Assembly: GCA_019635955.1 (NCBI GenBank)
Contig: JAHBYL010000011.1
Span: 1-64,000 of the forward strand
From: Parvibaculum sp.
Lineage (GTDB): Bacteria; Pseudomonadota; Alphaproteobacteria; Parvibaculales; Parvibaculaceae
Length of the DNA stretch: 64,000 nucleotides
Reading direction: 5' to 3'
Made by a program: the position numbers and the translations under genes
Part shown: positions 8,385-62,090 of the stretch, one piece after another
Numbering within the stretch: the first letter of the stretch is position 1
Layout of the letters: each line of letters begins with the position of its first letter
Notes under the pieces: model-generated
Database searches by the model: none
Seen by the model: only the letters and a program-made list of their open reading frames with translations
What the model was told of the DNA's origin: nothing

Positions 8385-11366
8385 GTGATTCGGATGCGAT
8401 CGGGGGTTCCATGGAGCGTCAAGGGCATTGAGCCCGAGGCGCGCGAAGCGGCCAAACAGGCTGCCCGCCGGGCTGGTGTCACGCTTGGCGCGTGGCTGAA
8501 CCAGGTCATCATGGATACCGGCACCGATGAAGTGGGCCGGCAGGAGCCTTCTGCCATGCAGAGCAGATATTCGGAGCCCCAACAGGCAGCCCCTCAAGCC
8601 CCGCAGCCCAAACCGGCGATCGATCTCGGCCCCCTCGGCGAGGCGGTCCGCGAACTGGTGCAGCGCGTCGACAGCAGCGAACGGCGCACGGCGGAAATGA
8701 CGCGCAAGCTCGAAGCCACGGTGGGCCAACTCGCCCATCGCCTCGATCAGTCGGAGCACGAGATGGAGGACAGATATTCGGACGCGCGCGGCCCCGATCC
8801 TCTGGAGCGCAAGCTGCAGATGCTCGGCGAGCGCATGGAACGCACCGAACGCACGCGTGGCGGATTGCGCCCCGAAGACCAGCGCACGATCCAGACGCTC
8901 GAAAAGGCGGTGAGCGCGGTCGTCGATCATCTCGAGACGGCAGAACAACGCACGGACAGTACACTCGCCGAAATTCGCGAGTCGCTTGCCTCGCTGTCGC
9001 ATCGCGTCGAAAGCGCGGAACAGGAAGCGCAGCGCGAGGAAGCGAAGCGCCGCGAACAGGTGCTTGAAAACACGCTGCTGCAGCTCGCCACGCGCCTCGA
9101 AAAGATGGAGCAGGGCGTAACCGGCATCGGGCCGCAGGCTGTGGAAGCCGCGCTTCGCGCCATCGAGGAAAAGTCGCAGGCGGAAAACCAGCGCGCCATC
9201 ATCGACAAGCTGCAGAACAATATCGAGAAGCTCACCGAACGCCTCGAACGCACGGAGAACCGCGCGGACCAGAGCCTCAAGACCTTCGAAAGCTCCGTCA
9301 CCAATATTGCACGCAAGCTCGAAGATCTCGACCGCGCGCATCGCACCGAGGTGCCGGATGCGCTCGCCACCCGCTTCGAGCAGATGGCGCAGCGCCTCGA
9401 ACACAATGAGCGGCTGACCATGGAAGCCGCGCAAACCGTCGAACGCGCAATCGCCGGTATCGGCGAAAATCTCTCGGCGACGGAAGGCCGGGAGCGCGAG
9501 GCGCTGACATCGCTGCAGGCGATGATCGAACGGATGACGAGCCGCCTCAACTCGCTCGAAAAGGAAGCCAAGGCCGCAAAGGCATCGCTTTCACCGCAAC
9601 TCAATGTTGCGGGCATTGCGGCCGGTTTCCCGCCTTCGGGGCCTGGATACGGCCTGCCCGGCTTCGACGCCGCACCCATGATGTCGCCCTCGATCGGGAG
9701 CAATCTCGGCCCGGCCTTCGGCCCCGGCGACTGGGACGCGCCCTATCGGAGCGAGATGCGCTCGACGCGCGGTGAAGCCTATGACACCGGCCGCTACGAA
9801 GCACCGCCCCTTGCCGGCGGGCGGCGCAGCGCGGGCAATTTCGAAGAGGTAGCCCCTCCCCCTTTCGCAGAACGGGCGGATGACATCTACGAAGACGAAG
9901 CCGAGATGCGCGGCGACGTCGACGACGGCATCATTCCGCCCGATCCGGAAGAACCCGTGCAGAACGCGGGCGAACGGGCCGCCAATGATTTTCTGGCTGC
10001 CGCCCGCCGTGCGGCGCAGGCAGCCGCACAAGGTGGTCATGCCCGGCACGAGCCTTATCCTGCCGGAGCGCAGGAGGCAGGCTTCAGCGCCTCGCCCGCG
10101 CGCTACTCCGCGCAGGACGAGGGCGAGAACCGCCGCCGCAAACTCGTTCTCGGCGTTGCCGCGAGCTTCGTGGCGCTCGCCGTGCTTGCAGGGGCCTATG
10201 TGATGCTGCAAGGCGGCCCCGCGCCGGTCGCACCGGTGACGGAGCAGATCGCGCCTGCGGGCGAGCCGCCGGTCGTGCTCGACACGCCGCGCAATGAAAC
10301 AACCGATCCGGAGGCCAGTCCGGAGGATGCCGGCGCCAGCAACGCCATACCAGGCGATGCAAGTGCGCCGGCATCCACCACGCCTGGCGATGCGGCTGCG
10401 GCGCCGAACGAGGCGCTCGTTCCCGCGGCCGCCGCAGCAGCCACCGCAACGCCTGCCGGTATGGCGACACTGACACAGGCGCCGCCGCTCGCTGCGGCGC
10501 CTTCGACGCCTGTCGAAGTCGCACCGGCCCAGGTGACGCTGATGGATGCCGCAAATGGCGGCGACGCGGCGGCGCAATATGAGGTCGGCGACCGGTTCGC
10601 CACCGGCGAGGGCGTGAAGCAGGACATGGCGGAGGCCGCCAAATGGTTCGAGCGCGCTGCCAATCAGGGGCTTGCCGCCGCGCAATACCGCCTTGCCACG
10701 CAATATGAAAAGGGCCGGGGCGTGAAGCAGGACGACCGCCTTGCCCGCGACTGGTACGAAAAGGCCGCCCAGGGCGGCAATGTGAAAGCCATGCATAATC
10801 TCGCCGTGATCCATGCCGAAGGGCGCGGCACGGCACAGGACTTCAAGACCGCCGCCGGCTGGTTCACCCAAGCCGCCGATTACGGGCTTGGCGACAGTCA
10901 GTACAATCTTGCGATCCTGAACGAGCGCGGGCTCGGCATTCCGAAGAACCCGATCGATGCCTACAAGTGGCTCGACATTGCCGCAAAGGGCGGCGACCAG
11001 GGCGCCGCTGCAAAGCGCGACGCGCTGGCGACGGAGCTCGGCGCCGAGGATCTTGCCCGCGCGAAGGTCGCGTCCGGCACATGGCGCGCAAAGACGCCCG
11101 ATCCCGTCGCCAATGGCGATCTTTCGTCGCTGAAGCAATGGGATGTCTCTTCGCTGACGAGCAGCACGGGCCCGGTGACGAGGACCGACATCGCGCGCGC
11201 GCAGGAGTTGCTGATCAGGCTCGGCTATGACGCGGGCTCGCCGGACGGGCTGATGGGTCCGCGGACGCGTGACGCCATTCTCGAATACCAGATGACCGAA
11301 GGGCTTTCGATGACGGGAACGGTCACGCAGGAAACGCTGCGCTCGCTCGAAGCGCGCCTCGGCTGA
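8385..11366 (+). CDS. PodJ-like SEL1-repeat and peptidoglycan-binding protein
   Basis: A 993-residue protein with the architecture of alphaproteobacterial PodJ-type polar organisers. A conserved cytoplasmic N-terminus (VPWSVKG..PEARE.AK..AR..G.TLG.WLN) is followed by a long heptad-rich coiled coil (about 75-400), a Pro/Gly-rich linker and one membrane helix near 583-607. Outside the membrane come an Ala/Pro/Thr-rich spacer, four SEL1 repeats (about 720-868) and a C-terminal peptidoglycan-binding domain (about 932-992). It probably links cytoplasmic factors to the cell wall at a pole or septum. The start may be GTG 8385 or ATG 8394; neither has a strong ribosome site. It stands alone, with 205 bases upstream. 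Confidence 0.9.
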   Translation: MIRMRSGVPWSVKGIEPEAREAAKQAARRAGVTLGAWLNQVIMDTGTDEVGRQEPSAMQSRYSEPQQAAPQAPQPKPAIDLGPLGEAVRELVQRVDSSERRTAEMTRKLEATVGQLAHRLDQSEHEMEDRYSDARGPDPLERKLQMLGERMERTERTRGGLRPEDQRTIQTLEKAVSAVVDHLETAEQRTDSTLAEIRESLASLSHRVESAEQEAQREEAKRREQVLENTLLQLATRLEKMEQGVTGIGPQAVEAALRAIEEKSQAENQRAIIDKLQNNIEKLTERLERTENRADQSLKTFESSVTNIARKLEDLDRAHRTEVPDALATRFEQMAQRLEHNERLTMEAAQTVERAIAGIGENLSATEGREREALTSLQAMIERMTSRLNSLEKEAKAAKASLSPQLNVAGIAAGFPPSGPGYGLPGFDAAPMMSPSIGSNLGPAFGPGDWDAPYRSEMRSTRGEAYDTGRYEAPPLAGGRRSAGNFEEVAPPPFAERADDIYEDEAEMRGDVDDGIIPPDPEEPVQNAGERAANDFLAAARRAAQAAAQGGHARHEPYPAGAQEAGFSASPARYSAQDEGENRRRKLVLGVAASFVALAVLAGAYVMLQGGPAPVAPVTEQIAPAGEPPVVLDTPRNETTDPEASPEDAGASNAIPGDASAPASTTPGDAAAAPNEALVPAAAAAATATPAGMATLTQAPPLAAAPSTPVEVAPAQVTLMDAANGGDAAAQYEVGDRFATGEGVKQDMAEAAKWFERAANQGLAAAQYRLATQYEKGRGVKQDDRLARDWYEKAAQGGNVKAMHNLAVIHAEGRGTAQDFKTAAGWFTQAADYGLGDSQYNLAILNERGLGIPKNPIDAYKWLDIAAKGGDQGAAAKRDALATELGAEDLARAKVASGTWRAKTPDPVANGDLSSLKQWDVSSLTSSTGPVTRTDIARAQELLIRLGYDAGSPDGLMGPRTRDAILEYQMTEGLSMTGTVTQETLRSLEARLG

Positions 11367-41513: not shown

Positions 41514-42488
41514 TCAGAAAATGCTTGTGGAGAAATAACGTGCGCTGATCCGCGCATAGGTGCCGTCGCTCACCAGCGACGCAAGCGCGACGTTTAAACG
41601 GTCGCGTAGTTCTTCCTCGCCCTCGCGAAGGGCTATTCCCGCACCATCGCCGAAATAAGCGGGATCGCCATAGTCCGGCCCCACAAGCCGGCAGCAGGCA
41701 CCTTCCTTTCCCGAAACCCAGCGCAGCAGCGTATTGCGGTCGGCGAAAACAAGATCGACCTCACCCGTTGCAAGTGCCTTTTCGGCTTCGACCGGACTGG
41801 GAAAGGAAACGAGTTCGGCAGCGGGAAAGCGCTTAACCGCAAAGGCCTGATGAGCCGATCCGGCCTGAACGCCGATCCGGCGTCCGGCAAGTGCGGCCGG
41901 TGTAGCCGCGGGCTGCATGTCGCTCCGCCTCGCGGCGAAGCGGCCCGGCGTCGAATAATAGCCGCGCGTGAAAATGATGCCTTCGCCCGCCGCGCTGCCG
42001 CGGCCGGCCACGGGAATCAGCATGGAGGCGATGACCGCGTCGCCCTCGCCGCGCCTCAAGGCGGGCACGAGAGCGGGCCAGGGAAGCGCAACGATCTGGC
42101 ATTCGGCGCCGAGCCTGTCGCACAGCGCCATGGCGAGGTCCACATCGAAACCCCTAAGAGCGCCGTCCTCGTCGCGGTAGTTGAAGGGCGGGTATTCGCC
42201 TTCCGTCAGAATGACGAGCGGCGCGGGGGCCGTAGCCACGGGTGCCCGAACATCCGGTTCGGACCGCCGCTCGGGGTTTGCAAGGGGAAGGCCGAGCGCC
42301 GCCATTTCCTCGGCGGTGAGCACGGGAGCGACCGCCGGTTCAGGCTCCTGCACGGGCTCGGATAGTGCTTCCGCCACCAGGCGCGGCGGGGCCTTGTGGC
42401 CGGGCAAGGGCGCGCCCTCGTAGAGCTGGACCAGCGCTCCGGCCAGCCAGACGATAGCGACCATATTGAGATAGAGAAGAAAACGCAT
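41514..42488 (-). CDS. Membrane-anchored family 3 solute-binding domain protein
   Basis: A 324-residue protein. A hydrophobic helix (2-21) is followed by a proline-rich linker (about 30-85) and a family 3 periplasmic binding domain (about 88-320) with EYPPFNYRDEDG.LRGFDVDLA and DAVIASMLIP. No cleavage site is clear, so it is probably anchored and faces the periplasm. Amino acids are typical ligands. No ABC permease is adjacent. ATG 42488 was preferred over 42539, whose upstream has no ribosome site. Divergent from the MshEN-glycosyltransferase gene. Confidence 0.85.
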   Translation of the reverse strand: MRFLLYLNMVAIVWLAGALVQLYEGAPLPGHKAPPRLVAEALSEPVQEPEPAVAPVLTAEEMAALGLPLANPERRSEPDVRAPVATAPAPLVILTEGEYPPFNYRDEDGALRGFDVDLAMALCDRLGAECQIVALPWPALVPALRRGEGDAVIASMLIPVAGRGSAAGEGIIFTRGYYSTPGRFAARRSDMQPAATPAALAGRRIGVQAGSAHQAFAVKRFPAAELVSFPSPVEAEKALATGEVDLVFADRNTLLRWVSGKEGACCRLVGPDYGDPAYFGDGAGIALREGEEELRDRLNVALASLVSDGTYARISARYFSTSIF

Positions 42489-42729
42489 CCCGCCCGCCCA
42501 AATTCCCGCCGCACCTTGGCACGGGAAGACCCGTCTCATTGTGACACAGAACGGGGCTGAGTTTCGTTTCGCAATGGCAACAATCCCGATCCTGAAAAAA
42601 GAAAAGCAAGCTCCGTGCCCCTTCTTTCGGTCTATTAAGGTTAACGCATCTGTTCTGTACCGTTATTGGGAAAAATTCTATCTGGCGTAGCGAATACAAG
42701 TCGAGTCCGGATCTCTCGGGGGGACATCA

Positions 42730-44697
42730 TTGGAAAAGACAGATGCTGCAAGGCGCGGCCGCGTTCGGCCTGCGCGCGATGGAAATTCTGCGCGCCGGGC
42801 GAAGCGCAACATGCGCGGCGGTCCTCGCCGGCTGATTGGAGAGATGGCGCTCGAGGCAGGCCTCCTCCTGCCCGAGATGCTTTCTCAGGCCCTTGAGCGG
42901 CAAAAACAATGGGGCAGCCGGCTCGGCGAAGTGCTGGTCAGCACGGGCGCCTTGCGGCTCGCCGACCTCGCACGGCTCTACGGCGCGCAGCGCGGCGTTC
43001 CCGTGGTCGATCTGGCCTCCGAGCCACGAGATGAAGCTCTCGCCGCGCCGGACGATCTCGACTTCTATCTGCGGACATCCTGCTTGCCCTGGCGGCGGCG
43101 GGCTGGCGAGACGATCTATGTCGCCGGCGATCCCGATACAGCACGCAGCGTCATTGCCGACCATGATGGCCGCCCCAGACCCGTCTTCATTGCTTCGCGA
43201 CGCGACATCTCCGAAACGCTGAGGCGCGATTTCGGACCGGCGCTGACCGACCGCGCCGTTTTCGACCTGCAGCGCCGGATGCCCGAAAATTCCGCCGCGA
43301 CCCGCCTCACCTCGCCGCAGATGTTCTGGCTTGGAGGTCTCCTTCTCTTCTTGCTGGCGGGGCTGGCGCTCGCGCCGTGGCATGTCTTCGCCACACTCAA
43401 CATTCTTGTCGGCTGCATCTTTCTCGGCGTTGCGGTGCTGCGCTACCTCTCGATCTTTGTCGGCCTACTCTCGCCCCAGACGGAGGAGGAACGCGCCTTT
43501 GCCAATTACGGCGTACCACCGGACAATGAACTGCCCGTCTATACGGTGATGGTGCCGCTCTTTCGCGAGGTCCGGGTGCTTCCGCTGCTCGCGCGGGCGC
43601 TCGGCGATCTCGACTATCCGGCGTCCAAGCTCGATATCAAATTGATCTTCGAGGAGGATGACCGTGAAACGCTGGAAGCGGCAAAGGCACTCGGCCTGCC
43701 GGACCATTTCGAATTCATCGTGGTCCCTGCGAGCCTGCCGCAGACGAAGCCCAAGGCCTGCAACTTTGCCCTGCCCTTCGCGCGCGGCGACTATCTCGTC
43801 ATCTACGATGCGGAAGACTGCCCGGAGCCGAAGCAACTCAAGAAGGCGGTAGCGGCTTTCGCTCTTGGCGACGAGAAGCTTGCCTGCGTTCAGGCGCATC
43901 TCAACTACTACAACTGGAACGAGAACTGGCTGACACGGCAATTCGCGATCGAATATGCCGCCTTTTTCGACCTGCTCCTGCCGACCATGGCGCGGCTCGG
44001 CCTGCCCATCCCGCTTGGCGGCACATCCACCCATTTCCGGACCGATGTGCTTCGCAAGGCCGGCGCCTGGGACCCTAACAATGTCACCGAAGATGCCGAT
44101 CTCGGCATTCGCCTTGCGCTGCAGGGCTATCGCTGCGGCATCATCCGCTCGACGACGCAGGAAGAGGCGAACTGCCGGTTGCCGAACTGGATCCGCCAGC
44201 GGTCGCGCTGGATCAAGGGATGGCTCCAGACCTGGCTTGTGCGGATGCGCCATCCGATTCGGCTCTATCGCGAACTCGGGCCCAAGGGCTTTATCGGGTT
44301 CCAGATCGTGATCGGCGGGTTCACCCTGTCGAGCCTGGTCCATCCGGTCTTCTATCTATCGATAGGTCTATCCCTTGCCCTTACCGGCGTTCCCGCGGAT
44401 TTCAACGAGGGAGCCAGTCTCGCCATCTTCAACATGCTGGTGCTCATATCGGGCTACGCGGTGGCCATAACCGCCGGACTTGCCGCGGTTTCGGCCCGGG
44501 GAATGGCCCCGCTTTTCAACCAGGCGCCCATGATGCCGGCCTATTGGCTGCTGATCTCTCTCGCCGCCTACAAGGCGGTGTGGCAATTGCTGACAAGGCC
44601 GTTTCACTGGGAAAAAACCGAACATGGCATCAGCCGCATGCTGCCGGGCTGGCTTTCCCGGGAAACGGAAAATCCCGACGAACGGGCTCCGCACTAA
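42730..44697 (+). CDS. GT2 glycosyltransferase with N-terminal MshEN (c-di-GMP-binding) domain
   Basis: A 655-residue inner-membrane enzyme. Two 24-residue MshEN motifs occur in tandem: 35-58 (G37, G44, L51, L55, Q58) and 64-87 (R64, L65, G66, L69, G73, L80, Q87), separated by five residues as in c-di-GMP-binding MshE. Two helices (about 195-245) lead to a cellulose-synthase-like GT2 domain with EEDDRET, DAEDCPE near 359, TEDADLG near 451 and QRSRW near 489, then C-terminal helices. It probably polymerises a polysaccharide under c-di-GMP control. The TTG start has GGGGGGAC upstream. Sugar unknown. Confidence 0.9.
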   Translation: MEKTDAARRGRVRPARDGNSARRAKRNMRGGPRRLIGEMALEAGLLLPEMLSQALERQKQWGSRLGEVLVSTGALRLADLARLYGAQRGVPVVDLASEPRDEALAAPDDLDFYLRTSCLPWRRRAGETIYVAGDPDTARSVIADHDGRPRPVFIASRRDISETLRRDFGPALTDRAVFDLQRRMPENSAATRLTSPQMFWLGGLLLFLLAGLALAPWHVFATLNILVGCIFLGVAVLRYLSIFVGLLSPQTEEERAFANYGVPPDNELPVYTVMVPLFREVRVLPLLARALGDLDYPASKLDIKLIFEEDDRETLEAAKALGLPDHFEFIVVPASLPQTKPKACNFALPFARGDYLVIYDAEDCPEPKQLKKAVAAFALGDEKLACVQAHLNYYNWNENWLTRQFAIEYAAFFDLLLPTMARLGLPIPLGGTSTHFRTDVLRKAGAWDPNNVTEDADLGIRLALQGYRCGIIRSTTQEEANCRLPNWIRQRSRWIKGWLQTWLVRMRHPIRLYRELGPKGFIGFQIVIGGFTLSSLVHPVFYLSIGLSLALTGVPADFNEGASLAIFNMLVLISGYAVAITAGLAAVSARGMAPLFNQAPMMPAYWLLISLAAYKAVWQLLTRPFHWEKTEHGISRMLPGWLSRETENPDERAPH

Positions 44698-44765
44698 CCA
44701 ATCGCTAAAGAGTTTTGCGCATATTGGAGGAAGTCGCGACAGCACAGCCCAAGAAAGATATCCGC

Positions 44766-45293
44766 ATGGCGCAAGAAGCCGGACAAAGCCGCAAGACCAT
44801 CGGCCCCGAAACCTATGCCCAGCTCGGCGTGCTCATCGTCGAAGACACGGTCTTCATGGCAAACATGCTGCGGAGCATTCTCTCAAGCCTCGGCATCCGG
44901 AACATCGTCAGCGCCCGCTCGGGCGAGGACGCGCTTGCCGCCCTTGTTCGCGGCAAGATCGATCTTGCGATCATGGACGACCTTGAGCCGCCGCTCGACG
45001 GGCTGTCGGTGGTACGCGCGGTCCGCACGGCGGAAGAATCCAATCTCGTCGGCATTCCGGTCATCTACGTGACGACGAAACGCGAGCGCAATGCGATCAT
45101 CGAAGCGCGCGATGCGGGTGTGACGGAAATTCTTTCCAAGCCCTTCTCCGCGCAGCAGCTCATCGAACGGATCGAGACCGTGCTGATGCGGCCCCGCGCC
45201 ATCGTGCGCTCGGCTGCCTTTACGGGCCCGGACCGCCGCCGCCGCGACGGCAAGGCGCCGGTGAAGCGCCGCGAGAGCGACCAGTCGTCCTGA
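44766..45293 (+). CDS. Single-domain CheY-like response regulator with basic tail
   Basis: A 175-residue receiver protein. Acidic pocket E26/D27, phospho-acceptor D71 (next to D72), T103/T104 and K125 are present. No output domain follows, only a Lys/Arg/Ser-rich tail of about 30 residues. It starts 69 bases after the MshEN-glycosyltransferase and may modulate it. The D71-D72-L-E-P-P-L-DG pattern replaces the usual MPxMDG. ATG 44766 is used; a TTG further up is possible because GGAGGAAG lies between them. Cognate kinase unknown. Confidence 0.88.
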   Translation: MAQEAGQSRKTIGPETYAQLGVLIVEDTVFMANMLRSILSSLGIRNIVSARSGEDALAALVRGKIDLAIMDDLEPPLDGLSVVRAVRTAEESNLVGIPVIYVTTKRERNAIIEARDAGVTEILSKPFSAQQLIERIETVLMRPRAIVRSAAFTGPDRRRRDGKAPVKRRESDQSS

Positions 45294-51315: not shown

Positions 51316-52134
51316 CTATTTGGCCAGTCCGAAAAGGCCCCTTTCGCCGCTCAATACCCGGAAAGCATCGGAAATGCCGACCACCGTTTCGGCGCCGCCG
51401 AGGCAGAGATAGCCCCAGGGCCGCAGCACTTTCGCAAGGCCCGAGAAAACGCGCCGCCGCGTGTTCTCGTCGAAATAGATGAGCACGTTCCGGCAAAAAA
51501 TGATGTCGAAAGGGCCCATGCCGTTCGCATGAGGATCGTCGAGCAGGTTGTAGCGGCGAAACTCGATCATCTGGCGCAAGGTGTCCTTTGCGCGCCAGCC
51601 ATCGTTCTCCGGCGTGAAGTACTTGCGAAGCAGAGGATCGGGCAGGCCGCGGGAAACTTCGAACATTGAATATCGCCCGGTCTCGGCGCGCGCGAGCATG
51701 GCGTCCGAGATATCTGTCGCCACAATCTCGATCTGCCATCCTGCGGTGAGCGGTCCCATTTCAGCCAGGGTCATCGCCAGCGAATAAGGTTCCTGCCCAC
51801 TCGAACAGGCGGCGCTCCAGATGCGGATACGGCGCGATGTTTTCGCCGCATTCATGACTTCGGGGAGCAGGCTTGCCTTCAGGCGCTCGAAGGGCCAGCC
51901 ATCGCGAAAGAAAAGCGTCTCGTTCGTCGTCATCGCGTCGACGATCTGGTTCAGCACCGCTTCGTCCCGCGTTCGCCGGATTTCCTCGATGAGCTGGCCG
52001 ACACTGCCGATGCCGCGCCGGCGGGCGATCGGCGACAGGCGGCTCTCGATCAGGTAGCCCTTTTCAGGCGTCACAACGAGGCCGGAGCGTTCATAGAGAA
52101 TCTGCTTCAGATAGTCGAACTCAGGACCGTTCAT
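51316..52134 (-). CDS. cheR: Chemotaxis protein methyltransferase CheR
   Basis: A 272-residue CheR with an N-terminal helical domain and a SAM-binding domain (IWSAACSSGQEPYS near 103-116; VATDIS near 137; FCRNVLIYFD near 213-222). It methylates glutamates of chemoreceptors such as the globin-coupled MCP of this operon. ATG 52134 overlaps the end of cheB by 14 bases. It is the last gene of the eight-gene chemotaxis operon. Confidence 0.95.
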   Translation of the reverse strand: MNGPEFDYLKQILYERSGLVVTPEKGYLIESRLSPIARRRGIGSVGQLIEEIRRTRDEAVLNQIVDAMTTNETLFFRDGWPFERLKASLLPEVMNAAKTSRRIRIWSAACSSGQEPYSLAMTLAEMGPLTAGWQIEIVATDISDAMLARAETGRYSMFEVSRGLPDPLLRKYFTPENDGWRAKDTLRQMIEFRRYNLLDDPHANGMGPFDIIFCRNVLIYFDENTRRRVFSGLAKVLRPWGYLCLGGAETVVGISDAFRVLSGERGLFGLAK

Positions 52135-53254
52135 TTCCCTCACCCCCTGCAATACGCATGATGGCCGGGCCGATCTGTCCAAGCGGCAGAATCTCCCGGC
52201 TCAATCCGGCCTGCGCAACGGCACCCGGCATTCCCCAAACCACGCTCGTCTCCCGATCCTGCGCCAGCACACGCCCTCCCGCATGCACCACCGCCTCGCA
52301 CCCCTTGAGCCCGTCACACCCCATTCCAGTCAGAATGATCGTGAGGAGCCTGTCGCCAAAAATGCGCGCAAGACTCCGGAGCATCGGGTCGACCGCAGGC
52401 TTGCAGGAGTTTTCGGGAGGCCCGTCATCCAGCCGGATGATGGTGCCGCCTGCTGCCGCCTGTTCGACAAGGAGGTGCTTGCCGCCGGGCGCGATATAGA
52501 TGCGCCCCGGCTCGATACGTTCGCCGTCCTGTGCCTCCGAGGCCGTGCGGCCCGAATAGCGCGTCATATGCTGCGCAAGCAGCGCGGTGAAAGTCGCGGG
52601 CATATGCTGAGTGATAAGGATCGGCTGGAGCAGCGAGGGGTCCAGATTCTTCAACACCTCGGCAAGCGCCTGCGGGCCGCCTGTGGACGAGCCGATGGCG
52701 ATTATCTCAGGCCGGGGAAGGAGTTCCTTGCGGCGTGAAGGAGACGAGGAAGGCGCCGGCTTCGCCGTACTGCGTGCCGCTCTTGCGGGGCGCGGCGCAG
52801 GCCTCGCCTGAGGCGCCGCGCTGCCATGCTGGCGAACCTTGCGCACCAGCTCTTCGTAGAAGGCATCGGCGCCGCCCAGCCCGGCCTTTGGCTTCTCGAC
52901 ATAGTCGGCCGCCCCCATCGCCATCGTCTTCAGCGATATATCGGCATCCTTCTGGCTCGCCGCCGAGACCATGATGACCTTGAGGTCGGGACGGAGCTCC
53001 AGCATGCGCGGCAGGGCGGAGAGTCCGTCCAGTTCGGGCATCTCGATGTCAAGAACAACGACATCGATCTCATGATTGCCCAGCGCCTTGAGCGCCATCA
53101 GCCCGTTCGGCACGGAGGCGACAACGCGAATGCCGGTTTCCTCGCTCAGCGTCCGGGTAACGATGCCACGCGCAATGGCGGAATCATCTACCACCATGAC
53201 ACGGCATACGTCATTTCCTTCGTCTTGCTTGCGCTTCCCGGCTTCGCTTTTCAT
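52121..53254 (-). CDS. cheB: Chemotaxis response regulator protein-glutamate methylesterase CheB
   Basis: A 377-residue CheB. The receiver domain (16-135) has phospho-acceptor D69 and K121. An Ala/Pro/Ser linker (146-178) leads to the methylesterase with S190 in GSSTGGP, H217 in TQHMP and the catalytic aspartate in TGMGCDG near 312. It removes methyl or amide groups from receptors when phosphorylated by CheA. ATG 53254 starts 20 bases after the cheZ stop; upstream in-frame starts would overlap cheZ. Confidence 0.95.
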   Translation of the reverse strand: MKSEAGKRKQDEGNDVCRVMVVDDSAIARGIVTRTLSEETGIRVVASVPNGLMALKALGNHEIDVVVLDIEMPELDGLSALPRMLELRPDLKVIMVSAASQKDADISLKTMAMGAADYVEKPKAGLGGADAFYEELVRKVRQHGSAAPQARPAPRPARAARSTAKPAPSSSPSRRKELLPRPEIIAIGSSTGGPQALAEVLKNLDPSLLQPILITQHMPATFTALLAQHMTRYSGRTASEAQDGERIEPGRIYIAPGGKHLLVEQAAAGGTIIRLDDGPPENSCKPAVDPMLRSLARIFGDRLLTIILTGMGCDGLKGCEAVVHAGGRVLAQDRETSVVWGMPGAVAQAGLSREILPLGQIGPAIMRIAGGEGNERS

Positions 53255-53273
53255 TCGGTGCCGTATCTTCCCG

Positions 53274-53774
53274 TTACTTGCTTCCACCGGCGAGCAACCT
53301 GTCGGCTGCGTCCTGTTCCATTCCGTTGCCTGGCAGAGCCGGTCCATTGAGCAGCCCGGCCGGAGCAGCCGACGAAGGCGCGGATGGCCTTCCCGCTGCG
53401 AGACAGTCAAGGCTTCGTCCCACCTCACCGAGCGTTTCCGTCACAAACGTCAGGCGCTGTCCCGTAATGTCCTGAAAACAGCATGCCTCCATGATCTCGT
53501 CGCAACAGGCGCTTGTCTGCTGCCGGGCGGCATCCACGTCCGAGAAGTCGATCTCTGCGATCTTCTCGACCGCGTTCATGATCCGGTCGACCGCCAGCTC
53601 CATCTCGCCGATCGCGGTCTTCTGTTCGTCATGCGCGCGGTTCAGCCTGTCGGTACGGAACGACGGATCGAGCAGCGGATCGAGAATCTTCCGTCCACGC
53701 AGGACCGAACGGCAGAGATCGATGCACTCATTGGTCAGGCGCTCGACGAGGTCGAGTTTTCCCGTCTCTGCCAT
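53274..53774 (-). CDS. cheZ: CheZ-like CheY-P phosphatase
   Basis: A 166-residue helical protein with the CheZ active-site sequence CFQDITGQRL; D102 and Q106 have the four-residue spacing of the catalytic D/Q pair in enteric CheZ. A Gly/Ala/Pro linker and a short C-terminal helix (GNGMEQDAADRLLAGG) follow, like the CheY-binding tail. It should speed dephosphorylation of the adjacent CheY. The start shares one base with the cheY stop. It is shorter than enteric CheZ (about 214 residues), as in other alphaproteobacterial versions. Confidence 0.9.
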   Translation of the reverse strand: MAETGKLDLVERLTNECIDLCRSVLRGRKILDPLLDPSFRTDRLNRAHDEQKTAIGEMELAVDRIMNAVEKIAEIDFSDVDAARQQTSACCDEIMEACCFQDITGQRLTFVTETLGEVGRSLDCLAAGRPSAPSSAAPAGLLNGPALPGNGMEQDAADRLLAGGSK

Positions 53775-54160
53775 CAGAAATCTCCAAGTACGGTCTTCAG
53801 CTTTGCCTTGAGCACTTCTGCGCTGAACGGCTTTATGATGTAGTTGTTGACGCCCGCCTGGCGGGCGGCGACGACATTCTCGACCTTGGATTCCGCAGTC
53901 ACCATGACGAAGGGCAGAGACTTCAGGGTTTCGTCCGCGCGCACCTTCTGCAGCAGCTCGTATCCCGTCATCGGCTGCATGTTCCAGTCGGAGATCACGA
54001 GGCCGTAATTCCGGCCCTTGAGCTTCGCCAGTGCGTCGGTTCCATCCATCGCCTCGTCGATGTCGGTGAAGCCGAGCTTCTGCAGCAGGTTGCGGACGAT
54101 ACGCAGCATCGTCTTGTAGTCGTCGACGATCAGGATAGGCATCTTCATATCGACAGCCAT
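53774..54160 (-). CDS. cheY: Chemotaxis response regulator CheY
   Basis: A 128-residue receiver. D13/D14, phospho-acceptor D58, T88 and K110 match CheY numbering within one residue, and the SDWNMQPMTG loop is typical. It carries the CheA signal to the flagellar motor. ATG 54160 has GAGGAG seven bases upstream. It lies between cheW and cheZ in the operon. Confidence 0.95.
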   Translation of the reverse strand: MAVDMKMPILIVDDYKTMLRIVRNLLQKLGFTDIDEAMDGTDALAKLKGRNYGLVISDWNMQPMTGYELLQKVRADETLKSLPFVMVTAESKVENVVAARQAGVNNYIIKPFSAEVLKAKLKTVLGDF

Positions 54161-54185
54161 GTCGATCACTCCTCGGAAATGAGAC

Positions 54186-54668
54186 TCAATGGATCGCTTC
54201 GGTGCCAATAGCGCCGAGCACATTGCCGACGCTGAGCACGAGAAGCAGCTTGTCTTCGAGCCGATAGATGCCATGCGACACATCCCGCCAGCGGGGATCG
54301 AGCGTTGCCGGCACGGGCTCGCGCCGCGCGGACGGCAAGCTCAGCACCTCACCCACTTCATCGACAAGCAGGCTGAAGGGTTCGTCGTCATGCTCCACCA
54401 CCACAGCCATCGCCCGCTCGGCGAAGCCGTCGGCCGGAAGATCGAGGCGGCGTCGCATATTGATCGCAGTCACAATACGACCGCGCAGATTGAGCGAGCC
54501 TGCAATTTCCGCCGGTGCAAGCGGCACCCGGGTGATTGCCTGCGGGCCGAGTACGTCCCGTACATTCAGGACGGGAATGCCGAATGTCTGACCGCCGATC
54601 GTCATCGTCACGTAATCTTCGGCGGGCGCTCCGGAAGTTCTGGCGGCTGCGTGAGCGGATCTGGTCAT
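54186..54668 (-). CDS. cheW: Chemotaxis coupling protein CheW
   Basis: A 160-residue CheW: TMTIGGQTFGIPVLNVRDVLGP near 21-42, SLNLRGRIVTAINMR near 58-72 and LVDEVGEVLSL near 100-110. It couples the receptor to CheA. The start overlaps the cheA stop (ATGA). A basic, Ala-rich 15-residue N-terminal extension precedes the domain. Confidence 0.95.
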   Translation of the reverse strand: MTRSAHAAARTSGAPAEDYVTMTIGGQTFGIPVLNVRDVLGPQAITRVPLAPAEIAGSLNLRGRIVTAINMRRRLDLPADGFAERAMAVVVEHDDEPFSLLVDEVGEVLSLPSARREPVPATLDPRWRDVSHGIYRLEDKLLLVLSVGNVLGAIGTEAIH

Positions 54669-57604
54669 GCTGCGATCTCCTTTGCCGGTGCGGCGACCGA
54701 CGTCCGCGACAGGGCGCCGAGAAGCGCCTTCGGGTCGAGCTTCGTCACATAGTCGGTGAACCCTGCCTCCATGCCGCGCTCGATATCCTGCGGGTTGGCA
54801 TGGGAAGAAAGCGCCACTATCGGCACCTCCTTCATACGGCTATCGGCGCGCAGCTTCCGCACGAGATCAAAGCCGGAAAGGCCGGGCATCTCGATATCGG
54901 AGACGATGATGTCGAACTGCGCGCCTTCCTTGCACATGGTCATGGCGGCTTCGCCATGCTCCGCCACGGTTACCGAGTAACCGGCGATCGTCAGCATCGG
55001 AATGAGCAGATTGCGGAAGAAGGCACTGTCTTCGACAAGCAGCACATTTCTCTCACTCTCGGCGCCATATGGCTTGTCGGTATCCACCTCGAACCAGTCT
55101 GCATCGCAGAGCCGCAGATAGTGGACCGTATCGATGATGTCGGTCGCTGCTCCCGAGACGATCGCGCTACCCAGGATTCCGGGACGGCTGCCGCCGGCGA
55201 GCTGGAGTTCCAGCGTCGTTTCCACAATGTCGATCACGCGATCGACAACGAGGCCCAGCATGCGCGAACCATCGACAAAGACGAGGATCGGGTGCTTGCC
55301 GATGAGTTCGGGCGCGTTACCGCCGAGATCGATCAGCGGCATCAGCCCGCCGCGATACTGCAGCACGGTTCGCGACCCCGCCCTTTCCGCTGTCGCAAGA
55401 TCGGCCTCCTCAAGTCTCGCCACGAGCGAAAGCGGCACGGCCTTCGGCCCACCCGATTTCGCTTCGAAGACGAGCAGCGAGACCGCCTCACCGCCATGCG
55501 CACCGCGCTCACCTCGCCCGGCTTGCGCCGCCGCTTCTGCATGGGGCGCCGCAGAGACCGCGGAGGCGAGGCCGTTCGGGTCGAGGATCATGATTACACG
55601 GCCGTCACCCAGGATCGTCGTGCCGGAGAAGCAGGAAATATGGCGCATGGAGCGCGACACCGGCTTCACCACGATTTCTTCCGTGTCGAAGACCTTGTCC
55701 ACGATGATCCCGAAGACGAAGGCGCCGACCTGCGAGACGACGACATAAGTACCGTCGGCGCCGTTCTGCGCGCGCGTGCGCTCGGTTTCCTCTTCGGGAA
55801 GTCCAAGAATCTCACGCAGCGAGACGAGCGGCAGCAGCCTGTCGCGCAAGCGGTAAACGGGCCGCCCGTTGATATTCTCCAGGCCCTTGGGCGAGTTGCG
55901 GCTGATGCGAACGAGCTCCACCACGCTGTTCTGCGGCAGCGCGAAGCGCTCGCCCGAACATTCGACGATCAGGGCCGAGACGATGGCGAGCGTCAGCGGA
56001 ATCTTGATGATGAAGCGCGAGCCCGCGCCTTCGGTCGACTGAAACTCGATGATACCGCCGATCTTCTCGATATTGTTCCGCACGACGTCCATGCCGACAC
56101 CGCGCCCGGAAACGCTTGTCACGGCGGCGGCGGTCGAGAAGCCGGGCCGGAAGATGAACTGCTGGATCTGCTGTTCGCTCATCCCGTCGAGCTGCGCCTC
56201 GGTCGCCAGCCCGTTGGCAACCACCTTCTCGCGGATCTTTGCGGTCGGCAGACCGCGTCCGTCATCCGAGACAACGACGACGATGTGGCCGCCTTCATGC
56301 CGTGCCGAAAGCTCGATGGTGCCATGCTCGGGCTTGCCACGTGCGAGCCTGTCGGCTGCGGCCTCAATGCCGTGATCGGCGGAATTGCGGACCATGTGGG
56401 TCAAGGGGTCGCGGATCGAATCCAGGATTTGCCGGTCCAGTTCCGTGTCCGCGCCGGTCATTGCCAGTTCGATCTTCTTGCCGAGTTCCTGCGACAAGTC
56501 GCGGACGAGACGCGGCAGCTTGCCCCAGGCATTGCCGATGGGCTGCATGCGCGTCATCATCACGCTTTCCTGCAGTTCGGTGGTCACCTGGTTGAGCCGC
56601 TGCAGCGGCGTGGCGAAGGGGTTGTCGCCTTGGCCGCGCATGATCTGCAGCAGCTGGTTGCGCGTCAGCACCAGCTCGCTCACCAGCGTCATCAGGTCTT
56701 CGAGCACATCGATATTGACGCGGAGCGTCTGGGCGGGCTGCGCCGCATCAGGCTTCTCCGTTGCTGGCGCCGGCGGCGCGGGCCTTGCCGCCTCGACAGC
56801 GATGCCGCCATGCGCATCATCCGTGCCGTTCGCCGCCGCCTCCCCGGATTTTTCCGGGCGGCGGAGAAGGCCGGTCAGCGACGCAATGTCGTCCTCCGCC
56901 ACGCCGAGCGACCGGAACGCTTCCGCGAGTTCGCCGGCAAGCAGCGAGACGTCACCGTCATTCCAGCCATTGTCGGTGAGGCAGGTCATTACGTCGGCGA
57001 TATCTATGCCGGGCACCTGCTGCAACGAGACTTCAAATCCCTTGGCGAGCGCGAATTGCAGCTTCAACATGTCGGGCGCGAGCGCCGCGGCCTCCGGCGA
57101 TTTCGACAGAAATCCGTGGCAGGCCAGCTCGCACGCCGTGTCGATCCCGGAGGCACTTCCGGCGCGCTCGTATAGCGTTCCATGTCCGGGCGCCGCGGCT
57201 GTATCCTTTTTCGTTTCCGGCGCGGCGGTGCCTTCCGCCGTACGACGCAGGACGGCGATCACATCGTCGTCGCGACCTTCGGGTTCGCTGCCGCTTGCAC
57301 CCAACGCCGCCACGAGTTCCTTGATGCGGTCGAGCGCTGCAAGTACCTGCGATATCACGTCGCGCGATACGCCAAGCTCCCCAGCGCGCACCCGCCCCAG
57401 CACATCTTCGGCGGCATGGGCTACAGCCTCGAGGCGCGGCAGACCGAGAAAGCCGCACGTCCCCTTGATCGTGTGCATGACGCGAAAGATGCTTCCGAGA
57501 AGCGCCGGATCGCCGGGCCGTTGCTCGAGCTCGACGAGTTCGCTGTCCAGCACGTCAAGCGCTTCGCAGGTCTCGGTGAGAAAGTCTGTAAGCAGATCGT
57601 CCAT
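54665..57604 (-). CDS. cheA: Chemotaxis histidine kinase CheA with second CheW-like domain and C-terminal receiver
   Basis: A 979-residue hybrid CheA. The Hpt domain carries H44 in MHTIKG. A low-complexity region (about 125-300) takes the place of P2. The P3 dimer helices, P4 ATPase (RNSADHGIE, DDGRGL, GRGVGMD) and P5 CheW-like domain (about 540-670) follow. A second CheW-like segment (about 706-835) and a receiver domain (about 848-970, phospho-acceptor D near 901 in SDIEMPG) end the protein. In-frame ATGs at 57622 and 57631 are possible alternative starts; 57631 has AGGA upstream. It phosphorylates CheY and CheB. Confidence 0.94.
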   Translation of the reverse strand: MDDLLTDFLTETCEALDVLDSELVELEQRPGDPALLGSIFRVMHTIKGTCGFLGLPRLEAVAHAAEDVLGRVRAGELGVSRDVISQVLAALDRIKELVAALGASGSEPEGRDDDVIAVLRRTAEGTAAPETKKDTAAAPGHGTLYERAGSASGIDTACELACHGFLSKSPEAAALAPDMLKLQFALAKGFEVSLQQVPGIDIADVMTCLTDNGWNDGDVSLLAGELAEAFRSLGVAEDDIASLTGLLRRPEKSGEAAANGTDDAHGGIAVEAARPAPPAPATEKPDAAQPAQTLRVNIDVLEDLMTLVSELVLTRNQLLQIMRGQGDNPFATPLQRLNQVTTELQESVMMTRMQPIGNAWGKLPRLVRDLSQELGKKIELAMTGADTELDRQILDSIRDPLTHMVRNSADHGIEAAADRLARGKPEHGTIELSARHEGGHIVVVVSDDGRGLPTAKIREKVVANGLATEAQLDGMSEQQIQQFIFRPGFSTAAAVTSVSGRGVGMDVVRNNIEKIGGIIEFQSTEGAGSRFIIKIPLTLAIVSALIVECSGERFALPQNSVVELVRISRNSPKGLENINGRPVYRLRDRLLPLVSLREILGLPEEETERTRAQNGADGTYVVVSQVGAFVFGIIVDKVFDTEEIVVKPVSRSMRHISCFSGTTILGDGRVIMILDPNGLASAVSAAPHAEAAAQAGRGERGAHGGEAVSLLVFEAKSGGPKAVPLSLVARLEEADLATAERAGSRTVLQYRGGLMPLIDLGGNAPELIGKHPILVFVDGSRMLGLVVDRVIDIVETTLELQLAGGSRPGILGSAIVSGAATDIIDTVHYLRLCDADWFEVDTDKPYGAESERNVLLVEDSAFFRNLLIPMLTIAGYSVTVAEHGEAAMTMCKEGAQFDIIVSDIEMPGLSGFDLVRKLRADSRMKEVPIVALSSHANPQDIERGMEAGFTDYVTKLDPKALLGALSRTSVAAPAKEIAA

Positions 57605-57645
57605 TTGCGTGCCCCGTGACATCTTGTGCATTTATCCTGTTGCCG

Positions 57646-57718: not shown

Positions 57719-60382
57719 CTAGCGATGCGCCGCTGTTTTCTGCACCGCCAGTCGAACGTCTTCTGTGCGCGCGGGCGGAAAGCGGATTTCGACGCGCGTG
57801 CCTTTACCCACTTCGCTTTCGATGCGCAGGCTGCCGCCATGCAGTTCCGCGAATTGCCTGGTGAGCGCGAGGCCAAGGCCGACGCCGTCGTAGCTTCGCG
57901 TGAGGTGGCTTTCGGCCTGCATGAAAGGTTCAACCACGCGCGCAAGGTTCTCGGCCGCTATCCCGATTCCTGTGTCCTGCACCGATAGCCGTATCGCCCC
58001 TTCGTCGTCGCAGATCGCATCAAGCGTGACGCTGCCGCCTCTCGGCGTGAATTTGATTGCGTTGGAGAGAAGGTTCAGCAGAGCCTGCGTCACAATCCGC
58101 CTGTCGCCGCGGAGAGCGGGAAGGCCGAGCGGAATATCCTGGCCGATCGCAAGCCCTGCGGCATCTGCACGCCCCTTCACAGTCTTGATGCAGGAGGCGC
58201 ACAGCTCGGCAATCGAGATCTCGCTCTCGTCAAGCTCCGCCGCGCCCGCCTCAATGCGGCTCAGGTCGAGAATGTCGTTGACGATGGCGAGGAGATGGTT
58301 GCCGCTGTCGTTGATGTCCTTCGCATAGGACTTGTATTGCTCTTCCGTCATGGGGCCGAGAAGATCGCCCGCCATCAGTTCGGAAAAGCCGATAATGGCA
58401 TTAAGCGGCGTCCGCAATTCGTGGCTCATATTGGCGAGGAATTGCGACTTCGCCCGGTTCGCGCATTCAGCCCGGTTGCGGGCGGCGCGAAGCTCCTCCG
58501 TGGCGCGATTGATCGCCGTCGTGTCGGTGACGGTGCCGCGCATACGGACCGGCTTGCCGCCCGCGTCGCATTCGATTTCCGCCCGCTCGAGAACGAATTT
58601 TACTGTGCCGTCAGCAAGCACGATCCGGTGTTCGACCTTGTATCCGCCGCCTCTTTCAAGGGCGTCGGCAACCATCGTTTCCACGACTTGCCTGTCATCA
58701 GGATGCACATAGGCGAGGAACGCCGGATATGTCATCTCGACCGATTGCGGCTCGAGACCAAACAGACGGTAGGCTTCGTCCGACCATTTGAGCGTGTTCG
58801 GTTCGATCTCCCAGATCCAGCCGCCGAGATGCGCAATCCGCTCCGCTTCGGCTAGGTTGTAGGCGCTTTCATGCAGCGCCATGATTGCCAGATGCCGGTC
58901 GGTCACGTCGTAACAGCCGATCATGGTCACGCCGTCGCCGCCCATCGTCATCGCCACGGTGGAAACCATGCACCAGATCTGGCGGCCCTTCGCCGTCGTC
59001 ATGGGCGCCTCGAAGCCTCTGGCGCGTCCATCCACCGCGCTTGCCGCGCTGAGAGCGGCGTCGAGTCCGCCGGGCAAGAAATCGGCGAAATTGCTTCCGT
59101 TCAGCGCTTCGGCCTCTATTTCGACAAGCGACGCGAAGGCACTGTTGCAGAAGAGGAGTTCGCCCGTCGACTGCCGCGCGATGGCGAGTCCGTAAGGCAT
59201 CGCCTCAACGATCATCCGCATCTGGCGTTCGCGGGCGCGCAGCGCCTCTTCCGCCTGCCGCAGCGAGGTAAGATCGCGAACGACCGCAGTGAAGACGGTC
59301 TCGCCTTCGATGACCATTCTGGAGATCGAGGCTTCCGCGGGAAATTCGCTGCCGTCCTTGCGGCGGCCTTTCACTTCCGGCCGGCCGCCCATGAGCTGCG
59401 TCGGGGCCTTGCCGCGTGCGAAGCGTCCCACCTGGGCCCGGTGCCGAGCTTGAATGCTTTCGGGCAACAGGATCGATAGATCCCTTCCGATCACCTCGCT
59501 GGCGCTGTAACCGAAGATCGCTTCCGCCTGGCGATTGAACAGCCGGATGCGGTGGTCGCTCCCCATGGAGACGATGGCATCGCCCGCCGCCGCCAGCAGT
59601 TCGTCGAGCTGGCGCCTTGCACTGGTCATCTCCTCGGCGCTGATGCGGCATTTGAGCGCCATGGCCAACCGTTCCGATATGCCTTCAAGCACGGCAAGCG
59701 TCAGGCGATCGCGCGGCTTTTCCCTGTCGAAGGCAAAGCAGAGCACAGCCACAATCTCGTCATGTGCCTTGAGGGGGATGGCCGCAGCACCGCTGCGGGA
59801 ACATATCTCGCTCGCATGGAAAGCTTCTTCGGCAAAGACCGCCGCGTCCTTCTGCCTTGCTGCTGCCGGGCGCGCATGCCGCCGCGCGAGCATGCCGTCC
59901 TTCGGCAGCCAGACCGAGCCGCTCTGCCAGCCTGCATAGAGGAGGATTATCCGCAGCACTGCATCGAGCGATTCCTGCAAGGACGTGCCTCGCATCACCC
60001 GGTCGATGACGGCCTGTGCGAAGCGGAGCTGGCGCTCCTCCTGCACCTGCCTGGTGACATCGGCGGCAATAAGCGTGGTGCTGGATCCCGGCGTCCAGAT
60101 CCGGGTGAGAATGAACTCGCTCCCGTCGGGCCGGCGGCAACGCCGCCTCAGCTCGAAGTTGTGCTCATCCTGTCTCTCCCGGCGCTGCGCTGCGGCGACA
60201 ACTTTGCCGCCGCCCGCTATGCACTTCTCGATGCCGGAAAGCGTCGGCGCGTCGCCCGCCGGCCAGCCGAGCATCCGGAGCAGCTCGCCCGCGCTCGCAT
60301 TCTGCGAAACGAGCTGTCCATTGGCGGGATCGAACACGAAAACGGCGGGCGAGCGATCCACTTCAGGCGTGAGATGAACCAC
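57719..60382 (-). CDS. Soluble GAF/PAS sensor histidine kinase
   Basis: An 887-residue kinase without membrane helices. An N-terminal PAS-like region is followed by a GAF-like domain (about 120-255), then three PAS domains (about 265-385, 390-505, 520-640), and a HisKA domain with H near 652 in NMSHELRTPL, and a HATPase with DTGIGI and GVGLGL. No receiver is fused. It lies between the globin-coupled receptor and cheA in one operon, which is unusual; it could signal through one of the nearby receivers. GTG start with GGAGGAG six bases upstream. Confidence 0.9.
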   Translation of the reverse strand: MVHLTPEVDRSPAVFVFDPANGQLVSQNASAGELLRMLGWPAGDAPTLSGIEKCIAGGGKVVAAAQRRERQDEHNFELRRRCRRPDGSEFILTRIWTPGSSTTLIAADVTRQVQEERQLRFAQAVIDRVMRGTSLQESLDAVLRIILLYAGWQSGSVWLPKDGMLARRHARPAAARQKDAAVFAEEAFHASEICSRSGAAAIPLKAHDEIVAVLCFAFDREKPRDRLTLAVLEGISERLAMALKCRISAEEMTSARRQLDELLAAAGDAIVSMGSDHRIRLFNRQAEAIFGYSASEVIGRDLSILLPESIQARHRAQVGRFARGKAPTQLMGGRPEVKGRRKDGSEFPAEASISRMVIEGETVFTAVVRDLTSLRQAEEALRARERQMRMIVEAMPYGLAIARQSTGELLFCNSAFASLVEIEAEALNGSNFADFLPGGLDAALSAASAVDGRARGFEAPMTTAKGRQIWCMVSTVAMTMGGDGVTMIGCYDVTDRHLAIMALHESAYNLAEAERIAHLGGWIWEIEPNTLKWSDEAYRLFGLEPQSVEMTYPAFLAYVHPDDRQVVETMVADALERGGGYKVEHRIVLADGTVKFVLERAEIECDAGGKPVRMRGTVTDTTAINRATEELRAARNRAECANRAKSQFLANMSHELRTPLNAIIGFSELMAGDLLGPMTEEQYKSYAKDINDSGNHLLAIVNDILDLSRIEAGAAELDESEISIAELCASCIKTVKGRADAAGLAIGQDIPLGLPALRGDRRIVTQALLNLLSNAIKFTPRGGSVTLDAICDDEGAIRLSVQDTGIGIAAENLARVVEPFMQAESHLTRSYDGVGLGLALTRQFAELHGGSLRIESEVGKGTRVEIRFPPARTEDVRLAVQKTAAHR

Positions 60383-60410: not shown

Positions 60411-61754
60411 TCAAGCGGCGCGGGCGCGGTTCAGGAACGTGTCGACCTGCTGGCGAAGCGTCTCGGCCTGCCGGGCAAGAAGATCCGACGATCCGGAGAT
60501 CTGCGCCGCCGCCGAACCCGTTTCAGCGGCCGCTTCGGCAACCGTCACGATGTTCGAGGACACGTCCTGCGTGCCGCGGGCCGCTTCCTGCACATTGCGC
60601 GCGATTTCATTCGTCGCCGCATCCTGTTCGTCCACCGCAGCCGCGATAGAGGTTGCGATCTGGTTCATTTCGGTAATCGTCTGCTCGATCGACTTGATCG
60701 CATCGACGGATTCCTGCGTCGCAGCCTGCATTGCCTTGATCTGCTCGGCGATTTCTTCCGTCGCCTTTGCCGTCTGGTTGGCAAGGCTCTTCACCTCGGA
60801 AGCAACGACCGCGAAGCCCTTGCCGGCCTCTCCGGCGCGCGCCGCCTCGATGGTGGCATTGAGCGCAAGCAGGTTCGTCTGCGCGGCGATATCGTTGATG
60901 AGCGTCACCACGTCGCCGATCTTCTGCGCAGCATCCGCGAGACCCTGCACCTTGCCGTCGGTGCGGTGTGCTTCCTGAACTGCCTGACCGGCGATCTTGG
61001 TCGACATCGAGGCCTGGCGCCCGATCTCGGCAATCGAACTCGAGAGCTGCTCGCTCGCCGAGGCGACGGTCTGCACATTGGCGGAGGCTTCTTCCGAAGC
61101 GGCGGCGACTGTGGTCGTCTTGGAGCTCGTCTGCTCTGCCGTCACGCTCATCGACTGCGCGGAAGCCTGAAGTTCGGTTGCAGCGGAAGCGACCGACTTG
61201 ATGATTTCGTTCACCGCGACGTCGAAATCGCTGATTGCGGTTTCGAGCGTCCGCTGGCGCGCGGCACGCTCCTCCACCATCGCGTCCTGATAGGTCGAGA
61301 TGGCAAGGTCCATGTCCAGACAGACAGCCGTGTTTACCGCACAGATGACCTGCGTCAGCCTGGCCGGGCTCCAGCGGTACTTCTTTACCGCGATGTCGAC
61401 GAGGCGATTCATCACGAACTTGTAGCCGCCGATATACCAGCGCGGCTCAAGGCCGATGCGGTTATGGGTCAGGCCGATGGTATTGACGCTCTGCATATAG
61501 GCTTCGTCGAAAGTGCCCGCAAAGAGCCGGGCCCAGTGCGAGCCCTGCGCCTGCTTCAGGCGAGGGGCCTGCGTGCCCACCAGCCTCGCCAGTTCAGGTT
61601 CCGAGCCCAGATGGGCGTAGAAACCGTCCAGGACCGCCGGAAGATGCGGCTCGATCACTTTCCAGAATTCCCGGAGCGCCTCCCCCGTTGTTTCCGATAC
61701 TTCCATGAAACGCAGGCGCGTTTCCCGGTCCGCAACAGCCTTGTTCGTCGTCAT
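60411..61754 (-). CDS. Globin-coupled methyl-accepting chemotaxis protein (HemAT-like)
   Basis: A 447-residue soluble chemoreceptor. Residues about 10-170 form a sensor globin with proximal H97 in the signature [16 protein letters not shown]; the rest is a receptor signalling domain with the hairpin-tip sequence [20 protein letters not shown] near 285-305. No membrane helix is present. It should bind O2 through haem and report to CheA through CheW, as HemAT does in aerotaxis. ATG 61754 has GAGGG six bases upstream. It is the first gene of the operon; an FNR-type gene is divergent. Confidence 0.94.
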
Positions 61755-62090
61755 GATTGCCCTCACCAAATGGGCCGGTCGCACCGGCCGATCCCCGTAA
61801 CGCCCCGGCCGGGAACGACGCATGAGTACTGCGGCGTTATGCCCCGTTCCATTGGACTATTAAGGATGATCTTGATGGTGGACTGAAAATAATTGGTTAA
61901 TATTACTTCGTTCTCTAAAGTTTTATTATAAACTATACTTATATACTGCATTTATAACTCAGATTAAAAATACGATTTTACCTGAAATAGGCATGGAACC
62001 TATTGTTTGAAAAGGGTAATTATCCCATATTGGAACAATGAGTCTTGGCTCAATAGTGCCGCGGGCGTCTGGTGGCGGACAGGTCGAAGT
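61755..62090. other. AT-rich divergent intergenic region
   Basis: A 336-base gap between the globin-MCP and FNR-type genes. Its middle (about 61880-62040) is strikingly AT-rich against the GC-rich surroundings, with several TATAAT- or TATACT-like strings, so promoters for both directions are likely. A perfect GGCCGGT-CGC-ACCGGCC hairpin (61773-61789) lies in the MCP leader, 19 bases before its start. No TTGAT-N4-ATCAA FNR box was found. No gene is supported. Confidence 0.6.

Follow-up and report, generated by a model that had tools for sequence, protein, structure and literature searches.

The locus raises the question of whether a membrane glycosyltransferase and the receiver protein encoded directly after it answer to the same second messenger, c-di-GMP. 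The original prediction for this stretch of Parvibaculum DNA (64,000 nucleotides, all of which is referred to here as the window) was that the enzyme is a polysaccharide synthase gated by c-di-GMP and that the receiver adds a second input. Both open reading frames were found as claimed at 42730-45293, a 655-aa synthase followed by a 192-aa protein, and the PF00072 match at residues 39-154 of the latter bears out the next gene as a receiver (Table 1). It was noted that a ribosome-binding-like stretch, GGGGGA, lies just 5' of the TTG start of the synthase gene. The receiver gene has an alternative start, the ATG at 44766, and the gap between the two genes is 17 bases to its TTG start or 68 to this ATG. 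A terminator scan between the synthase and receiver genes returned no candidate, and a promoter consensus scan of 42540..42729 gave weak matches at best.

Table 1. Coordinates of the gene pair, its domains and motifs, and the divergent neighbor within the window
Feature	Position	Strand	Details
Membrane-anchored orphan SBP_bac_3 protein, divergent to the glycosyltransferase	41514..42539	-	PF00497, 98 bits; conserved glycosyltransferase neighbor
Intergenic region between the divergent SBP and glycosyltransferase genes	42540..42729	.	promoters presumed
MshEN-GT2 membrane glycosyltransferase	42730..44697	+	655 aa, TTG start; Pfam/NCBIfam matches, AlphaFold2
MshEN motif I, LIGEMALEAGLLLPEMLSQALERQ	42832..42903	+	residues 35-58; homologue alignment, Leu at position 1 within the extended consensus (PMC11731258)
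MshEN motif II, RLGEVLVSTGALRLADLARLYGAQ	42919..42990	+	residues 64-87; homologue alignment
MshEN C-terminal subdomain (PF05157 match)	42994..43245	+	profile match; fold match to 5htl
GT2 catalytic domain	43522..44229	+	about residues 265-500; profile match, motifs, fold match
DAED (DxD-type) motif	43807..43818	+	residues 360-363; homologue alignment
QxxRW motif (QRSRW)	44197..44211	+	residues 490-494; invariant in 47 homologues
Single-domain receiver with a Cle-type arginine-rich tail	44715..45293	+	192 aa; Pfam PF00072, family alignment
Receiver domain (PF00072)	44829..45176	+	residues 39-154; D88, T120, K142 and alpha-4 Arg R132 present
Arginine-rich (ARR) tail	45195..45281	+	residues 161-189: R161, F169-T-G-P-D-R-R, R185-R186, D189

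The synthase carries a tandem MshEN motif

The published c-di-GMP-binding motif, RLGxx(L/V/I)(L/V/I)xxG(L/V/I)(L/V/I)xxxxLxxxLxxQ, is present twice with a 5-residue linker (PMC5013675), and the two 24-residue motifs of the synthase were found exactly where they had been placed, with a five-residue spacer (residues 59-63). The conserved Gly and Gln positions held up on examination, but the Arg expected in motif I did not, as position 1 is Leu (L35) where MshE has Arg. Motif II keeps its Arg (R64), but Tyr (Y84) replaces the last Leu (position 21). In a structural study of PilF GSPII-B, the consensus at position 1 was widened to R/K/L, with a hydrophobic residue there favoring tight binding and Leu raising affinity (PMC11731258). 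The absence of the motif-I Arg was considered as a fatal flaw and rejected, because Leu at this position binds tightly in that protein. Scored with the extended consensus over 14 key positions (7 per motif), each motif of the synthase retains 7/7, and the other Parvibaculum rows retain 12-14. In motif II, the residue at position 1 differs among members of the genus (R, P, S, or Q), and Ser there abolished c-di-GMP binding in another context (PMC12002112). Across 24 aligned relatives, the Gly and Gln contact positions show no variation (G37, G66, and G73) or almost none (G44, Q58, and Q87).

The tandem motifs are not a chance resemblance, since two family models match above their cut-offs: NCBIfam NF053729, a MshE-related c-di-GMP motif, at residues 36-84 (40.7 bits, cut-off 38) and Pfam PF05157 MshEN at residues 89-172 (37 bits, cut-off 23.1). 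Because a full-length fold search returned the glycosyltransferase part only, the MshEN region was modelled alone (pLDDT 91.7), and the model shows a four-helix bundle followed by a C-terminal alpha/beta subdomain. It matched c-di-GMP-bound MshE (5htl) with Z 16.7 and an rmsd of 2.9 over 135 residues, PilF GSPII-B with Z about 15, and XpsE with Z 14.1. XpsE is described as a c-di-GMP non-binder (PMC5013675), so the fold by itself is no proof of binding. An assignment of the N-terminus to a PilB/GspE-type ATPase was rejected, as the ATPase domain does not follow, and the synthase is the sole PF05157 protein found in its own genome. Taken together, the family models, the motif conservation, and the fold match to ligand-bound MshE support the reading of a c-di-GMP-gated synthase, and we predict such gating to be likely.

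The glycosyltransferase part resembles membrane polysaccharide synthases

The GT2 domain with QxxRW that had been expected to follow MshEN is indeed present. Its signatures (D311, DAED, TED at 453-455, and QRSRW) are retained in 46-47 of 47 homologues, and the DxD-type, TED, and QxxRW motifs together with flanking membrane helices are those expected of a GT2 membrane polysaccharide synthase. The full-length AlphaFold2 model (mean pLDDT 88.6, pTM 0.88) gave its best fold match for the glycosyltransferase part to the mannosyltransferase PcManGT (Z 29.2 over 338 residues), and BcsA (Z 24-27) and hyaluronan synthase (Z about 24) were also matched. In sequence and model, this part of the protein fits a polysaccharide synthase. 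Two specific identities were rejected, NfrB (NCBIfam equivalog NF008411, 32.2 bits against a cut-off of 1170) and cellulose synthase BcsA/CelA (TIGR03030, 41.8 bits against 699.1). It was noted that no export partner or chain-modifying gene adjoins the synthase locus, and a search for BcsB found none in the 87%-complete genome and none adjacent to the synthase.

The receiver ends in a Cle-type arginine-rich tail

The closest solved relatives of the receiver are PleD and CheY, and its C-terminal extension contains the sequence FTGPDRRRR. In the Cle proteins of Caulobacter, c-di-GMP is bound by an arginine-rich region made of tandem [YF]xGP[DE][RK]R with flanking Arg and Asp (PMC5677366). Conservation in the tails of 30 synthase-adjacent receivers falls on R161, G171, P172, D173, R174-R176, R185, R186, and D189, which reproduces the published ARR frame except for the second GPD. 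Within FxGPDRR, the G, P, R, and R were found in 38/38 family rows and the strict motif in 37, and the motif is the best conserved stretch of the C-terminal extension (0.92 vs 0.58-0.63 around it). The alpha-4 Arg R132 is likewise present in 38/38 rows. The second ARR repeat of the Parvibaculum protein is degenerate, reading KRR without GPD, with R185, R186, and D189 retained; two members of the same family (L028 and L029) carry two full copies, and loss of the second Arg in CleD had about a 5-fold cost (PMC5677366).

The spacing of these residues also agrees with the Cle proteins. The phosphorylation site lies 86 residues from the first key Arg in all three cases (D88-R174 here, 67-153 in CleA, 70-156 in CleD), and its distance to the alpha-4 Arg is 44 here (D88-R132), 44 in CleA, and 43 in CleD, where the Cle distances are computed from the residue numbers in PMC5677366 rather than from a fresh alignment to the Caulobacter sequences. 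Although 36 receiver domains exceed the Pfam cut-off in the genome, the strict ARR pattern occurs at 2 places only. The other is the first receiver of a receiver-Hpt-receiver module (L132:7586-9143, G000:C68).

These observations modify the claim of a second input. The receiver does not appear to be a simple independent input, since its tail corresponds to the Cle-type c-di-GMP motif, and c-di-GMP therefore probably acts on the receiver as well as on the synthase. From the sequence, we consider direct binding of c-di-GMP by the receiver to be a reasonably probable prediction. The residues for phosphorylation are also retained (D88 and K142 in 38/38 family rows, T120 in 34), and it may thus be phosphorylation that actually switches the protein.

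The gene pair is conserved within the family

The receiver gene lies directly 3' of the synthase gene in 30/30 loci of the initial set, which covers Parvibaculum and its family (the genome under study, 24 genus mates, and 5 loci from other genera), and the ARR pattern was found by coordinates 524-1177 bases beyond the glycosyltransferase match in 22/25 family genomes. The pair is thus conserved in related genomes. One of the three exceptions, G030, does have a receiver alongside, with the sequence HMGPERRR; in the other two, which belong to a single genus, the MshEN motif has been lost too. Another genus of the family keeps the MshEN motif and has no adjacent receiver. In the glycosyltransferase tree, the 24 Parvibaculaceae rows group in a single supported clade, and 23 of them have an intact motif (11 or more of the 14 key positions). 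The linkage and motif retention may therefore reflect one history and not repeated events.

Several further loci were noted. In one genus of the family (g2; L138 and L054), the glycosyltransferase has no recognizable MshEN motif and no adjacent receiver, and a single, weaker FliM/FliN match was found in its genome. Two loci, L046 (G008) and L139 (G033), have the synthase gene in two pieces about 4 kb apart, which suggests an insertion. In homologues from Methylocystis, Hyphomicrobium, and other genera, either the Gly/Gln residues of the motif or the whole MshEN domain has disappeared. A Pelagibacteraceae relative has a GGDEF-EAL gene after the glycosyltransferase (L068:9581-11173), though its MshEN motif is lost. 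Receivers with YFGPDRRR occur near motif-less glycosyltransferases in L051-L053, L060, and L070; they were not counted in support of the linkage, as they lie on the opposite strand and have conserved neighbors of their own.

Neighboring genes and genomic surroundings

The divergent SBP_bac_3 gene is a more widely conserved neighbor of the synthase than the receiver. Its homologues were found beside the glycosyltransferase in up to 40 loci, including those of Hyphomicrobium, Rhodomicrobium, and Methylocystis, and it accompanies the synthase across several alphaproteobacterial families. The encoded protein has a hydrophobic segment at its N-terminus, and a Pfam search found no transporter genes directly beside it. 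There is a precedent in NspS-MbaA for a periplasmic binding protein feeding c-di-GMP signaling (PMC9993111), and by analogy we infer that the SBP_bac_3 protein may have such a role at the Parvibaculum locus.

The genome contains seven GGDEF domains and flagellar FliM/FliN. Flagellar genes were found in all Parvibaculum genomes, so the gene profile does not decide whether the pair depends on the motor. About 6 kb from the Cle-like gene lies a chemotaxis operon (51316-57631, minus strand) encoding CheR, CheB, CheY, and a hybrid CheA that bears a receiver at its C-terminus. Beside it are genes for a large PAS histidine kinase resembling DivJ/PdhS (57719-60382, minus strand) and a methyl-accepting protein resembling Aer2 (60411-61823, minus strand). 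Elsewhere in the window, 8385-11366 (plus strand) encodes a protein of 993 aa that combines Sel1 repeats with a peptidoglycan-binding domain at the C-terminus and is presumably similar in architecture to the polarity factor PodJ.

Proposed mechanism and alternative explanations

Given the genes, their domains, the intact motif residues, the predicted fold, and the conserved linkage, we lean towards the reading that the pair is a c-di-GMP-controlled surface-polysaccharide unit in which the messenger acts on both the synthase and the Cle-type receiver. c-di-GMP would bind the N-terminal MshEN bundle and switch on, as we infer, rather than inhibit, the cytosolic GT2 domain, which would then processively add sugars to a chain handled by the membrane helices of the synthase. 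The same ligand would also bind the arginine-rich tail of the receiver and direct it to a target, for which the strongest candidates are the flagellar motor, by analogy with CleA and CleD, and the synthase. One rise in c-di-GMP could then bring about polymer synthesis together with attachment or motor braking. In a bolder version, which we regard as rather unlikely, the receiver would be a dedicated subunit that docks on the synthase when its tail holds c-di-GMP; the enzyme would read c-di-GMP twice via unrelated receptors, and phosphorylation and a periplasmic SBP_bac_3 sensor would be further inputs.

The synthase could instead be the only c-di-GMP effector, with a conventional, phosphorylation-driven receiver that associates with the synthase or with partners of the synthase and whose Arg-rich tail has a different function. 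The near-complete retention of D88, K142, and T120 and the degenerate second repeat are consistent with this, and EpsW in NCBIfam offers a precedent, by name, for a single-domain regulator of a polysaccharide cluster; however, the tail motif tops the conservation of the C-terminal extension and its spacing from the phosphorylation site equals that in CleA and CleD, and we consider this explanation doubtful. It appears improbable that the MshEN domain has lost c-di-GMP binding and now acts as a module for interaction or oligomerization, as it would have to in the relatives without the motif residues. Although those losses in Methylocystis, Hyphomicrobium, and other homologues and the variable position 1 of motif II agree with this, nearly all Parvibaculaceae rows (23/24) keep 11 or more of the 14 key positions, and in PilF GSPII-B the affinity is raised by a Leu at position 1 (PMC11731258).

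The nature of the product can also be questioned. Rather than making a polysaccharide, the enzyme might transfer a single sugar to an acceptor, either lipid or protein, as a membrane glycosyltransferase that is not processive; this is suggested by PcManGT as the best fold match, the lack of adjacent export genes, and the failure to find BcsB in the 87%-complete genome. Against this stand the QxxRW and TED signatures, the C-terminal membrane helices, the matches to BcsA and hyaluronan synthase, and a Gallionella relative that sits within a BcsB-GH113 polysaccharide cluster, and we likewise hold this to be a possible but doubtful alternative to a processive synthase.

Comparison with known systems

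MshEN-glycosyltransferases and Cle proteins are each known separately, and the literature searched described no receiver-synthase unit, no link between Cle proteins and polysaccharides, and no c-di-GMP-controlled polysaccharide of Parvibaculum. A pair conserved side by side in one family would provide a compact test case for the coordination of matrix synthesis and motility by one second messenger, and it would extend Cle-type regulation to genes partnered with a polysaccharide synthase. A natural comparison for the role of the domain without c-di-GMP is offered by those relatives whose MshEN is still attached but has lost the ligand residues.

The N-terminus of the synthase shares its fold and tandem 24-residue motif with the N-terminal domains of MshE and PilF GSPII-B, and with the latter also Leu at position 1 of one motif; the carriers there are pilus or secretion ATPases, whereas in Parvibaculum the domain is carried by a glycosyltransferase. 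BcsA is comparable in its GT2 membrane synthase fold and its control by c-di-GMP, which is predicted here, but the control of BcsA acts via a C-terminal PilZ in place of an N-terminal MshEN. E. coli NfrB joins MshEN and GT2 in one membrane protein, as in Parvibaculum, and c-di-GMP binding to its MshEN is required for glycosyltransferase function (PMC8669469). However, MshEN is C-terminal in NfrB, and the partners of NfrB are NfrA and DgcJ.

The same domain order was found in the XagB/Sfz2/Sfb2 type of Xanthomonas, Zetaproteobacteria, and stalk-forming Betaproteobacteria, where an N-terminal MshEN precedes a C-terminal GT2; Sfz2 has an N-terminal T2SSE_N/MshEN and then GT2 with TED and QxxRW (PMC8250860). 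A Gallionella homologue (L049) is 41% identical to the Parvibaculum synthase over nearly its full length and lies in a cluster with the order BcsB, GT, x, GH113. Enzymes of this type are clustered with hydrolases and a BcsB-like gene, whereas no such cluster surrounds the Parvibaculum synthase, whose neighbors are the Cle-type receiver gene and the divergent SBP gene. The receiver shares with CleA-CleE the C-terminal ARR [YF]xGP[DE][RK]R, the alpha-4 Arg, and the spacing to the phosphorylation site. It differs from them in its degenerate second repeat, its full phosphorylation site, and ligand binding that is predicted, and also in gene context, as Cle genes lie in a che operon or elsewhere and the Parvibaculum receiver gene lies beside a polysaccharide synthase. 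MshEN-GT fusions are thus already known from NfrB and the XagB/Sfz2 type, and the difference here is the pairing with a Cle-type receiver.
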